64,000 nucleotides of DNA from Peredibacter starrii (lineage in GTDB: Bacteria > Bdellovibrionota > Bacteriovoracia > Bacteriovoracales > Bacteriovoracaceae), in the NCBI RefSeq assembly GCF_034259205.1, contig NZ_CP139487.1, positions 3,534,001-3,598,000 on the forward strand, given 5' to 3'. Below the pieces are notes generated by a model. That model did not search any database. It had not been told where the DNA came from and worked only from the letters and a program-made list of their open reading frames with translations. Position numbers and translations under genes: made by a program. Positions 26,997-61,941 of this stretch are shown here, one piece after another. Each line of letters opens with the position of its first letter. The stretch's first letter is position 1.

Positions 26997-27908
26997 TTAC
27001 TTCGAATTTGACCTCAATTTATTAAATTCTGACTTCAAGACGTCTCGAAACCAAGACTTCAATGGGTCTTTGTGCGTGAGAGCGTGCCACACCATTCGGA
27101 ACTCAATCGTGGGTGCTTCGATCGGTACTTTTTGAATCTTAATGGGAAAATACTCCTGGTACTTCTTTAAAAGTAGAGTCGGTGCGGTCAGGACAAGATC
27201 AGAACTTGAGAGCGTCCATGCCATACTGGTAAAGCTATAGGAGCCATACTGAAAATTTCTCTGTTTTTGTCCTTTTACTTTTAAGACTTCTTTGAAGTCA
27301 CCTTGAAGAGTAATTAAAGCGTGATCACACTCATAGAACTGAGCTGCATTCAGTTCGCCTTTTATCTTTGGATGATTCTTCCTATAAGCAGTTGAGAAAG
27401 AATCCTCAAAAACCTTTGTCATATAGAATCCTTCAGGAAGATCTTTATAAAAGCCAGCTATCGCCAGGTCATACATGCCACTCTCAAGTTCGCTCTTAGG
27501 AAACGACCCTCCCGTGGGGCGAATTGAGATTTGAACATGAGGGGCCTCTTTTTTAAGTCGCTGGAGGAGATGAGGGATAAGTATCACTTCAGTATAATCA
27601 GTTGTAGCAATCGTGATTCGACCTTGCGATGTTTTCGGATCAAACTTTTCGGTACTCTGGGAGAGCTTTCTCGCCTCTTCCGTCAGTCTCTCAATAGAAA
27701 CTTGCAGTCCCTTTGCGACTTCCGTCATTGCCATGCCCTTTGAAACTCTAACGAACAAAGGATCGTTAAAATGATCTCTTAGTCTTGAAAGAGCGTGGCT
27801 CACGGCCGACTGGCTCATGGAAAGTTCTTTGGCGGTTTTGGAAACATTCAAGGTTTTATAAAGGCTTTCAGCAATAAAAAGAAGGTTAAGATCGAGTTGT
27901 GTCTTCAT
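26997..27908 (-). CDS. LysR-family transcriptional regulator
   Basis: A 303-aa LTTR. The winged helix spans about residues 5-64 (LLFIAESLYKTLNVSKTAKE, then LSMSQSAVSHALSRLRDHF). The substrate-binding domain begins with RITIATTDYTEVILIPHLL. Similarity suggests the NodD/YbeF-like subgroup. ATG 27908 is chosen because the HTH aligns there; TATATT ends 6 bases upstream and there is no SD, so it is probably leaderless. It is divergent from the Hsp31-like lipoprotein, with an inverted repeat in between, so that gene is the likely target. The OsmC-YcaO gene lies 115 bases downstream. Confidence 0.9.
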   Translation of the reverse strand: MKTQLDLNLLFIAESLYKTLNVSKTAKELSMSQSAVSHALSRLRDHFNDPLFVRVSKGMAMTEVAKGLQVSIERLTEEARKLSQSTEKFDPKTSQGRITIATTDYTEVILIPHLLQRLKKEAPHVQISIRPTGGSFPKSELESGMYDLAIAGFYKDLPEGFYMTKVFEDSFSTAYRKNHPKIKGELNAAQFYECDHALITLQGDFKEVLKVKGQKQRNFQYGSYSFTSMAWTLSSSDLVLTAPTLLLKKYQEYFPIKIQKVPIEAPTIEFRMVWHALTHKDPLKSWFRDVLKSEFNKLRSNSK

Positions 27909-27924
27909 TATATGAATATAACCG

Positions 27925-27944
27925 ATAGCTATTATGAAAGCTAT
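27925..27944. promoter_or_regulatory. Candidate LysR-type binding site
   Basis: ATAGCT-N8-AGCTAT is a perfect inverted repeat in the 90-base gap between the LysR gene and the Hsp31-like gene. It lies just upstream of the LysR -10 and has the T-N11-A layout typical of LTTR boxes. Confidence 0.5.
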
Positions 27945-27998
27945 GAAATGTATATCTATCAGCCCTTGTGCCATAATCATCTCATCAAGGGAGGACCT

Positions 27999-28757
27999 AT
28001 GAAATTATTCGTACTATTAACGGCCATTCTTACTCTCGGGACTGCATGTAGCAGTCAAAAAGGGGAACATAATATGAAGAAGACAGCACTAATTGTGGTT
28101 TCAAGCCATGAGAATTTGGGAAGCACTGGAAAAAAAACAGGTTGGTATTTATCCGAGGTAACTCATATCTACTATCCCCTTTCGAAAGCTGGATTTGATA
28201 TTGAATTCGCAAGTCCAAAAGGCGGAGCTGCACCAATGGATGAAAGCAGCCGAGACTTAAAAGACCCTGAGAATAAACAGTTCTTAGAAGACAGGGCCTT
28301 AATGGAAAAGATGAAGACAACTCTTGCCTTAAGCGAAGTTGATCCGAAGAAGTATCAAGTCATTCACTTTGCCGGTGGCCATGGCGCCATGTGGGATTTT
28401 GCAGAGAATAGAGATATTAATCGTGTTGCGTCCCAAATTTATGAGCAAGGTGGGATTGTATCGGCCGTTTGTCACGGACCAGCTGCCTTAGTTAATATTA
28501 AACTTTCAAACGGAGATTATCTCATAAAAGGAAAAGATGTGAATTCCTTCACAGACTCTGAAGAAGCAGCGGTAGGAAATACGAAGGTCGTTCCTTTCCT
28601 TTTAGAGACAACTTTGAAATCTCGTGGAGCAAAATTCCATGCGGGAAAAGACTGGGAAGATAAAGTTGTAGTTTCCGAAAGATTGATTACTGGTCAGAAT
28701 CCTCAATCCGGTCACAGCGTTGGTAAAAAAATTGTAGAGATGTCACAAGCTCAATAA
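27999..28757 (+). CDS. DJ-1/PfpI-family (Hsp31/glyoxalase III-like) lipoprotein
   Basis: A 252-aa class I glutamine-amidotransferase-like protein. The N-terminus is a lipoprotein signal (LTLGTACSS), unusual because most Hsp31 relatives are cytoplasmic. The core has YPLSKAGFDIEFASPKGG, HFAGGHGAMWDFAEN and the nucleophile elbow AVCHGPAAL with Cys158. These proteins detoxify methylglyoxal or act as deglycases and chaperones. GGGAGG lies 4-5 bases before ATG 27999. If translation instead began at a Met 26 codons later the protein would be soluble; there is no good SD there. It is probably controlled by the divergent LysR gene. Confidence 0.88.
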   Translation: MKLFVLLTAILTLGTACSSQKGEHNMKKTALIVVSSHENLGSTGKKTGWYLSEVTHIYYPLSKAGFDIEFASPKGGAAPMDESSRDLKDPENKQFLEDRALMEKMKTTLALSEVDPKKYQVIHFAGGHGAMWDFAENRDINRVASQIYEQGGIVSAVCHGPAALVNIKLSNGDYLIKGKDVNSFTDSEEAAVGNTKVVPFLLETTLKSRGAKFHAGKDWEDKVVVSERLITGQNPQSGHSVGKKIVEMSQAQ

Positions 28758-28774
28758 TTGGTATTCCTATTGCA

Positions 28775-28812
28775 AGATTTCCTCCGTTTTAAATTCAATT
28801 AGGAGGAAATCT
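28775..28812 (+). promoter_or_regulatory. Perfect 11-bp hairpin masking the SD at 28813
   Basis: AGATTTCCTCC (28775-28785) is the exact complement of GGAGGAAATCT (28802-28812), with a 16-base AT-rich loop. The 3' arm carries the full SD AGGAGG and its last base touches the ATG at 28813. It is the strongest SD-masking stem in the window. Confidence 0.65.
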
Positions 28813-29535
28813 ATGTGGTTAAAATTTTTTCTTATCTTAGTTGTCTCTCATTCAGCTTTTGCGTCTCAGGAGTTCTGGGGCAAAAAGGTTCATGTCGGGG
28901 AAGGTTACGCCAGAACATTTGCCTCACTAGATAAAGATGGAGGGCTTAAGGAAATGGGAATTATTATTTCCCATAGAGCATTAGAAGGTCTGGGCCATCA
29001 TGATAAGTCTTATGAACTTCCACTTCCTTCTAAAATCTCCATTCCACCTTACAAGTTGGTCACCCTAGATTGGAATCCTCATGGACACGAGCCAGAAAAC
29101 GTCTACACTCTGCCACATTTTGATATGCACTTCTATTTCATAACCAAAGCGCAGCGAGATCAAATTAGCTGCACGGGTACTGATGCGGCGGTTTGCACTA
29201 AGGAAATTCCTGAGAAGTATCTTGTAAGCAACTATGCACCGACTCCGGCCGGAGTACCCAAAATGGGATGGCATTGGGTAGATTTGCTCTCTGGTGAATT
29301 TAATGGAGAAAAATTTACGAAGACCTATATCTATGGGTATTACGACTCTGAACCTATCTTCCTGGAACCGATGGTTACTTGGGAATACCTTGCTTCAAAG
29401 GTAAATGCTTCTCAAAGTTTACGCTTACCAAAAAGCTTCCCACAATCAGGCCACTACCCTAAAAAGTTTAAGATCTCATATGATGACCACAAGAAGCTGC
29501 ATAAGATCGTACTTAAGCATTTTAAGCATTACTAG
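28813..29535 (+). CDS. Secreted DUF5602 (TTHB210-like) protein
   Basis: A 240-aa protein with a Sec signal peptide (VVSHSAFAS, cleavage near residue 18). The mature part matches the DUF5602/TTHB210-like family: VHVGEGYARTFASLDKDG, LDWNPHGHEPENVYTLPHFD and MHFYFIT, with several conserved His and Glu suggestive of metal binding (GHEPENVY, PHFDMHF). GWHWVDLLSGEF follows. The function is unknown and periplasmic location is expected. Its SD is inside an 11-bp perfect hairpin, which implies conditional translation. Its TAG overlaps the convergent mtfA stop codon by four bases (CTAG). Confidence 0.83.
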   Translation: MWLKFFLILVVSHSAFASQEFWGKKVHVGEGYARTFASLDKDGGLKEMGIIISHRALEGLGHHDKSYELPLPSKISIPPYKLVTLDWNPHGHEPENVYTLPHFDMHFYFITKAQRDQISCTGTDAAVCTKEIPEKYLVSNYAPTPAGVPKMGWHWVDLLSGEFNGEKFTKTYIYGYYDSEPIFLEPMVTWEYLASKVNASQSLRLPKSFPQSGHYPKKFKISYDDHKKLHKIVLKHFKHY

Positions 29536-37129: not shown

Positions 37130-37215
37130 ATATGCAAAAGTTGCATATCCATCCAGCAAAAACTGACTTTTAATTTACAACGATTGCATGGGAGTGATAT
37201 TTCATTCCCATGCAA
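37130..37215. promoter_or_regulatory. Two palindromes at the LysR gene start sharing TTGCAT half-sites
   Basis: ATATGCAA-AAG-TTGCATAT (37130-37148) is an 8-bp perfect inverted repeat. TTGCATGGGA (37184-37193) and TCCCATGCAA (37206-37215) are a 10-bp perfect repeat spaced by 12 bases, with the LysR ATG (37210) inside the second arm. TTTACA (37174-37179) and GATATT (37196-37201) form a promoter with 16-base spacing between and within them. This is the layout expected for autorepression at DNA level, and the second repeat could also fold in RNA. Confidence 0.55.
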
Positions 37216-38070
37216 TATCAAATTGACCCACAAGACTGTCTCATCCTTTACGCTATCCATGAGGCCGGCTCCATCAAAAGTGCCGGGCATATTCTCAAAA
37301 AAGATCCTTCTGTTATTTTGAAAAGAGTTCAAAAGATTTCCCGTGAAACTGCTCTCATCGAGAAAATGAATGGCTCTTGGACTTTAACAGAGAAAGGCAA
37401 GAAGATGGCCCTTTGGGCCAAGGAAATGCAGCTTAGTCAAAAGGCCGTTTTGGAATCGCCCACGACACTTCGCCTTGGTGGAACCATGTTCTTCATTGAA
37501 CGAGTGATTGCCCCTTATCTTGCGAGCTCACCTTTCAAAGAAATGGCCCAGAAAAACCATTTGGAAATCCTATGTCCTTCCGAAGGACTTGAGGCCTCGC
37601 TTCTCCGAGGAACACTTGATCTGGCCTTTGCCTGCGGACGACCTAATGATCCTCAAATCGGATTCAAAAAAGTTTGTGACGAACGTTGGAGCATCGTATG
37701 TACTCCTAAACTTGCTAAGAAAGCAGATGAAAGACTCGATCAACTTCTTGATCTCCCATTTCTTCGTCACAAATCATTGGTTCCAGAAGAGATGCTAAAA
37801 ATCGATCGCCATAAAATTAAGACTCTACTTGTCTTTGATACTGTTGCGGGACTTCGTTCAAGTGCCATCAATGGTCTTGGCTGGACTCTTCTTCCAAGAG
37901 CGGCCGTAGCAGATGAACTTCAAAAAGGACAATTAGTTGATTTGTCTTCCTCTCTTCAAATTAGTCTTAAAAATGATTTTTTAGGGATTTGGTGGTTAAA
38001 AGAAAACAAATCGGTCAAAGAGCACATCGCACCTCTCATGAATTGGCTCAGTGATTCAGACTTGATCTAA
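37210..38070 (+). CDS. LysR-family transcriptional regulator
   Basis: A 286-aa LTTR with a divergent HTH (LILYAIHEAGSIKSAGHILK, then KDPSVILKRVQKISRE) and a full-length effector domain starting LRLGGTMFFIERVIAPYL. Its last strand has NDFLGIWWLKENKS. The N-terminus is shorter than usual. ATG 37210 lacks an SD and lies in the second arm of a 10-bp inverted repeat. Flanking genes are unrelated, so its target is not obvious apart from itself and possibly the HTTM gene 150 bases downstream. Confidence 0.85.
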   Translation: MQYQIDPQDCLILYAIHEAGSIKSAGHILKKDPSVILKRVQKISRETALIEKMNGSWTLTEKGKKMALWAKEMQLSQKAVLESPTTLRLGGTMFFIERVIAPYLASSPFKEMAQKNHLEILCPSEGLEASLLRGTLDLAFACGRPNDPQIGFKKVCDERWSIVCTPKLAKKADERLDQLLDLPFLRHKSLVPEEMLKIDRHKIKTLLVFDTVAGLRSSAINGLGWTLLPRAAVADELQKGQLVDLSSSLQISLKNDFLGIWWLKENKSVKEHIAPLMNWLSDSDLI

Positions 38071-61911: not shown

Positions 61912-61939
61912 GAAAGGCTCTTGTTTTAAGGAGCCTTTC
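61912..61939 (+). promoter_or_regulatory. Perfect 9-bp hairpin masking the SD of mtnB
   Basis: GAAAGGCTC (61912-61920) and GAGCCTTTC (61931-61939) pair perfectly over a 10-base loop (TTGTTTTAAG). The SD AAGGAG straddles loop and 3' arm just before ATG 61942. No T-tract follows, so it is not an intrinsic terminator for the SIP gene. Confidence 0.55.
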
Positions 61940-61941
61940 TC

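Follow-up and report, generated by a model that had tools for sequence, protein, structure and literature searches.

Organization of the locus

The window analyzed in this study, that is, the whole 64-kb stretch of DNA, contains at positions 28813 to 29535 of the forward strand a gene encoding a 240-aa secreted protein of the TTHB210-like family. The profile match to PF18197 (E = 1.9e-8; 35.2 bits against the Pfam cut-off of 26.6) placed the protein within this family, and a Sec-type signal peptide, MWLKFFLILVVSHSAFA, was read by eye. The initial annotation had named the gene DUF5602; a family of that name was returned by neither Pfam nor NCBIfam, and the Pfam name is used here instead. A literature search found no papers on TTHB210 or DUF5602. 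The fold of the protein was predicted by AlphaFold with high confidence (pLDDT 94.8); Foldseek gave no PDB match at E ≤ 0.001, and sequence and fold searches of the PDB together yielded no significant relative. The invariant motifs GHxP, HFDxHF, MGWHW, and EPM suggest a His-rich site, perhaps a metal-binding one.

Upstream on the same strand lies a DJ-1/PfpI family gene (28074 to 28757) with its stop codon at 28755–28757. Its start is uncertain, ATG 27999 or 28074 being preferred over GTG 27795. A second DJ-1/PfpI paralogue, with 44% identity, was noticed at another site of this genome (G000:C1:2458829-2459479). Divergent from the DJ-1 gene, a gene assigned by family match to the LysR-family regulators (26997 to 27980, reverse strand) likely controls it, as judged from its position. 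The DJ-1 stop codon is followed after 55 nt by ATG 28813 of the TTHB210-like gene; neither a terminator nor a promoter-like site was predicted in this gap, and the two genes are presumed to share one transcript.

A hairpin over the ribosome-binding site

The gap on the forward strand contains a perfect 11-bp stem formed by the 5′ arm AGATTTCCTCC (28775 to 28785) and the 3′ arm GGAGGAAATCT (28802 to 28812), which enclose a 16-nt AU-rich loop, GTTTTAAATTCAATTA (28786 to 28801). The 3′ end of the stem directly abuts ATG 28813, and arms, loop, and coordinates were all as the initial annotation had described. It had further placed the complete Shine-Dalgarno (SD) sequence in the 3′ arm, which is correct for GGAGG and not for the first A of AGGAGG (28801–28806), the final base of the loop. 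A search across the genome found the sequence in single copy, with one symmetric site, and gave no support for a dispersed repeat. In the minimum free energy fold of 28720–28860 (z = −2.6 against shuffles), the stem was accompanied by an extension in which 28769–28774 is predicted to pair with 28814–28819, adding six pairs, three of them G-U, around a bulged A28813. Since the extension also pairs two bases of the start codon, U and G, both the SD and the start codon are base-paired in the predicted mRNA fold, as in a hairpin that sequesters the ribosome-binding site (RBS).

The calculated cost of opening the RBS was 15.4–16.8 kcal/mol, compared with a genome median of about 6.2 kcal/mol, and fell to 6.0–6.9 kcal/mol upon removal of the 5′ arm. 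In the temperature series the cost came to 16–18 kcal/mol, and the predicted probability of an unpaired SD at 37 °C was 0.0003. By these calculations, the stem can be expected to be a strong obstacle to ribosome entry. The earlier proposal, by which no protein is made unless the stem opens, is backed as far as the predicted hindrance goes and exceeds the evidence in its exclusiveness. A ribosome halted at the DJ-1 stop codon would cover the mRNA to about 28768, and when the modelled cover was extended up to 28778, the probability of an unpaired SD stayed at 0.0003. According to this model, a ribosome terminating at the DJ-1 stop does not reach or directly open the stem.

Frequency of comparable stems by chance

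In shuffles of the gene's own upstream sequence, at least 11 Watson-Crick pairs over the SD arose with P = 1.5e-4, and a stem of the same length abutting the start with P = 5e-5. In 864 kb with 431 SD-bearing genes, a single stem of this length was seen against an expectation of 0.035; it is that of the TTHB210-like gene, the longest over any SD tested. As a control, AGGAGG-like sites within coding regions were surveyed, and 2 of 4,873 bore an equally long stem. Scaled up from the samples, about 0.2–0.7 such stems are expected by chance per whole genome, the upper figure being that from the coding-region control. An 11-bp stem over an SD is therefore improbable for one named gene and not for a genome, rare rather than impossible; the assertion that a chance match is improbable holds in the first sense and not in the second. 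Meanwhile, SD stems of at least 8 bp were in excess (6 of 350 genes against 18 of the 4,873 coding-region control sites, p = 0.004), which gave the first hint that the genome holds too many of them.

Perfect inverted repeats of at least 11 bp numbered nine in the window. Six with loops longer than 8 were found there, and 11 in the first-sampled other 800 kb; this local richness in long-loop repeats may be due to chance.

Comparison of orthologous leaders

The initial annotation proposed conserved pairing in orthologous leaders as a check. In a set of 29 genes with curated starts, which includes the gene of the window, opening costs of at least 14 kcal/mol were found for only four, namely this gene and the orthologs in G101 (21.7), G325 (16.2), and G197 (14.8). 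Stems of 15 (G-U counted), 12, and 10 pairs bury the SD in these three orthologs (L055, L083, and L074, respectively), and their sequences are unrelated. The nearest members of the genus were ordinary or mildly structured (G009, p = 0.54; G003, 0.18; G012, 0.03), and the excess of structure in the orthologs over background genes was not significant (composition-corrected p = 0.16, own gene excluded). Across the 29 orthologs neither a consistent hairpin nor a conserved loop sequence was found, and a conserved leader element of TTHB210-like genes was accordingly rejected. Loss of pairing with retention of the SD, which had been named beforehand as evidence against the proposed control, was largely what we observed: in G009, G039, G111, G217, and further genomes the full SD is retained and a strong hairpin is missing, these relatives being not strictly close, with about 40–55% protein identity and a different upstream context.

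The neighbourhood is not conserved either, as the DJ-1 gene precedes the TTHB210-like gene in the window only. DJ-1 orthologs in the genus have no similar hairpin beyond their stop codons, leaving a role of the hairpin as a 3′-end element of the DJ-1 gene unsupported. No relative was found in viral contigs. In few orthologs does a same-strand gene end at most 100 nt upstream, and these include the two with the strongest hairpins, the gene of the window (55 nt) and that of G101 (68 nt). This post hoc observation led us to test genes with such short gaps as a class.

Strong hairpins in short gaps after same-strand genes

The test covered 1.66 Mb of the 4.15-Mb genome, divided into a discovery set of 864 kb and a subsequent, independent set of 800 kb, with the hypothesis fixed before the second set. 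The class threshold of 13 kcal/mol was picked after the discovery set had been seen and before replication. A simple script served to call the gene starts, and a certain SD strength was required, so that the class numbers below are approximate.

In the discovery sequence, the top five RBS-burying hairpins among 350 genes with ATG and SD were all situated 50–75 nt after a same-strand gene. Costs of at least 13 kcal/mol occurred in 10 of 68 genes with a same-strand gap of 20–100 nt (Fisher p = 0.0024). The replication set gave 10 of 44 such genes versus 11 of 196 genes with a wider gap or a neighbour on the opposite strand (Fisher p = 0.0012), and the difference was also evident in a Mann-Whitney test (p = 2e-5) and in composition-corrected z-scores (p = 1.4e-5). 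When pooled, 20 of 112 genes with gaps of 20–100 nt (17.9%) had strong hairpins versus 3.1% in shuffles; elsewhere the frequencies were 1.9% where the gap was at most 19 nt and 3.0% with an opposite-strand neighbour. The class mean z was 1.17 here versus 0.01 in Escherichia coli K-12, where no excess was seen (450 kb, 34 genes; p = 0.0009), and the relatives G003 (0.60) and G039 (0.26) showed a weak trend (p = 0.07 each).

In the 26 class genes with costs of at least 12 kcal/mol, the 5′ arm starts a median of 17 nt past the upstream stop codon, so most class hairpins lie in the gap. Tails with at least five T in eight nucleotides were found in 0% of the class hairpins versus 40% of the hairpins found where convergent genes end (p = 1e-4). 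Exported-looking products were encoded by 15 of the 26 class genes versus 26 of 86 (p = 0.011), a comparison that is exploratory and uses a crude predictor. The M48 peptidase gene, a member of the class, also has its SD buried in the closest relatives with a similar gap, G009, G012, and, more weakly, G003 (14.5, 12.2, and 10.5 kcal/mol, respectively), by differing sequences; the gap measures 54–58 nt in all three, and relatives with other gaps lack a buried SD. Further class examples in this genome lie at G000:C1 positions 1147030 and 59644, both on the forward strand, and a uracil-phosphoribosyltransferase-like gene is another member.

Based on these results, the stem at 28775–28812 most probably belongs to a class of translation-limiting intercistronic hairpins and is not a switch dedicated to the gene first named DUF5602. 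A single RBS hairpin is of an ordinary, known kind; the excess at the class level is the part worth following. We tentatively entertain, as a possibility that falls short of an even chance, that this bacterium, and perhaps the Bacteriovoracaceae, routinely uses gap hairpins, such that roughly one-fifth to one-sixth of the SD-bearing genes 20–100 nt downstream of a same-strand gene would be translationally insulated from their operon. By extrapolation, such use would concern about 50 genes genome-wide, with secreted products perhaps over-represented and with hairpins that lie mostly in the gap and are opened somehow. Should the class prove real, translation and not transcription would tune or switch a whole set of operon-internal genes in a family of predatory bacteria. 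This would account for very different protein levels from tightly packed genes and would predict a general opener, such as ribosomes that scan the mRNA, a helicase, or transcripts of the predation phase.

Proposed mode of action and known counterparts

For the locus itself, we consider it slightly more probable than not that the hairpin acts, as a member of this class, on an mRNA presumably shared by the DJ-1 and TTHB210-like genes and lowers direct ribosome entry at the second gene. By burying the RBS of the second cistron, the hairpin would reduce direct entry of ribosomes, and the second protein would consequently be low relative to DJ-1 or dependent on ribosomes coming from the DJ-1 gene. 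Translation of the second gene in the cell would be reduced, and any relief would presumably be due to post-termination ribosomes, which might scan the 55 nt and open the stem, with no part played by heat, a ligand, or an internal promoter. In the simplest interpretation, the hairpin is an intercistronic element that limits translation, perhaps with coupling to the upstream gene, and is not evidently a switch.

Direct initiation is strongly suppressed in designed constructs when a stem of at least 6 bp encloses an internal RBS (PMC11602170). The present stem resembles these synthetic coupling elements in enclosing the RBS, and differs in that the constructs have overlapping stop and start codons by design, whereas the stop codon here is 55 nt away. 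Intercistronic hairpins that sequester an RBS also occur in translationally coupled operons, e.g., E. coli rpmI-rplT (PMC12548453), in which the downstream RBS is likewise buried on a polycistronic mRNA, as presumed here, and the stop-to-start distance is +52 nt versus +55 nt. In coupling by RNA unfolding, rpmI-rplT included, part of the structure is covered or unwound by the ribosome on the upstream gene (PMC12548453); in contrast, the 5′ arm of the present stem lies wholly past the DJ-1 stop codon, out of reach of the ribosome in the model, and coupling of this form is not supported here.

Alternative explanations

That the inverted repeat is neutral or arose by chance and has no selected role, at most lowering the translation of a little-needed gene, is unlikely in our estimation. 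The lack of conservation in orthologs, the expectation of about 0.2–0.7 such stems per genome, and the nine perfect repeats in the window agree with it, whereas the small per-gene probability and the location of the stem in the very gene class with a replicated, composition-corrected excess of hairpins argue against it.

An arrangement like that of phage T4, in which read-through mRNA from the DJ-1 gene would be folded and silent and a transcript starting in the 5′ arm or loop would be translated, appears improbable. Such an arrangement is well established in T4, for late genes and for homing endonucleases, where stable hairpins cover the SD of genes within longer upstream transcripts (I-TevI, segB, soc, and e), and a late promoter in or beside the hairpin allows late mRNAs to escape it (PMC2988022). 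The return of the opening cost to a normal value once the 5′ arm is gone would fit, as would the G325 ortholog, in which a promoter-like TAATAT is placed to start transcription inside the 5′ arm. The stem in the window, however, holds no promoter-like site under the sigma70 model, the only one applied; its best score of 2.7 ranked at the 37th percentile among random stretches. In addition, the promoter-like scores of the class hairpins were lower than those of other genes (4.40 versus 5.07).

It is also quite improbable that the hairpin is a terminator, attenuator, or RNase processing site that ends the DJ-1 mRNA and overlaps the next RBS by accident. Its strength and intercistronic position would suit such a role, but the tail following the stem, ATGTGGTT, lacks a U-tract and terminator calling gave no site, by which an intrinsic terminator was excluded; moreover, the DJ-1 orthologs of the genus end without a similar hairpin.

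A switch opened by heat or in trans, by a small RNA, a protein, or a ligand, is very improbable, even though the AU-rich loop could serve as a landing site with the RBS held in the stem. RNA thermometers such as ROSE and fourU have imperfect stems that open near 37–42 °C; they share with the present leader an SD paired in a 5′ stem, and differ from its perfect 11 bp, predicted to stay closed beyond 75 °C. The melting profile, suggested as a check in the initial annotation, gave no opening below 75 °C, where the predicted pairing of the stem was still 0.93, and a thermometer was excluded because more than 90% remained paired at this temperature. Rfam 15 had no match at the curated threshold anywhere in the window, and the loop is unconserved in orthologs. 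The opener implied by the earlier proposal was accordingly found neither in heat below 75 °C, nor in an internal promoter-like site, nor in a ribosome at the DJ-1 stop.

Finally, a DNA-level operator bound by the LysR protein encoded close by, or by some other regulator, which the perfect symmetry and the nearby LysR gene might bring to mind, is hardly credible, as the arm has no second copy near the LysR/DJ-1 promoter, its copy number in the window matches chance, the arm centres are 27 bp apart, unlike a T-N11-A site, and the whole genome has this single symmetric site.

Other hairpins

The window contains another RBS hairpin, AAAGGCTC..GAGCCTTT (61918–61941), directly 5′ of ATG 61942, with an opening cost of 18.9 kcal/mol and a same-strand gap of 75 nt. 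At 37183–37216, ATTGCATGGGAGTGA and TCATTCCCATGCAAT form 14 of 15 possible pairs with a loop of 4 nt and span the ATG at 37210 that apparently starts a gene read by eye as LysR-like; this hairpin could be an autoregulatory operator or could hide the start codon. Pairing of the CCUC..GAGG type over an SD was seen in two genera, in G039:C1 near 207891 and in G003:C1 (block 1-400000, reverse-strand position 306757). The genes concerned are apparent orthologs encoding proteins that resemble RNA-recognition-motif proteins of the MG.K.YVGN type by eye, and autoregulation of these genes is possible.
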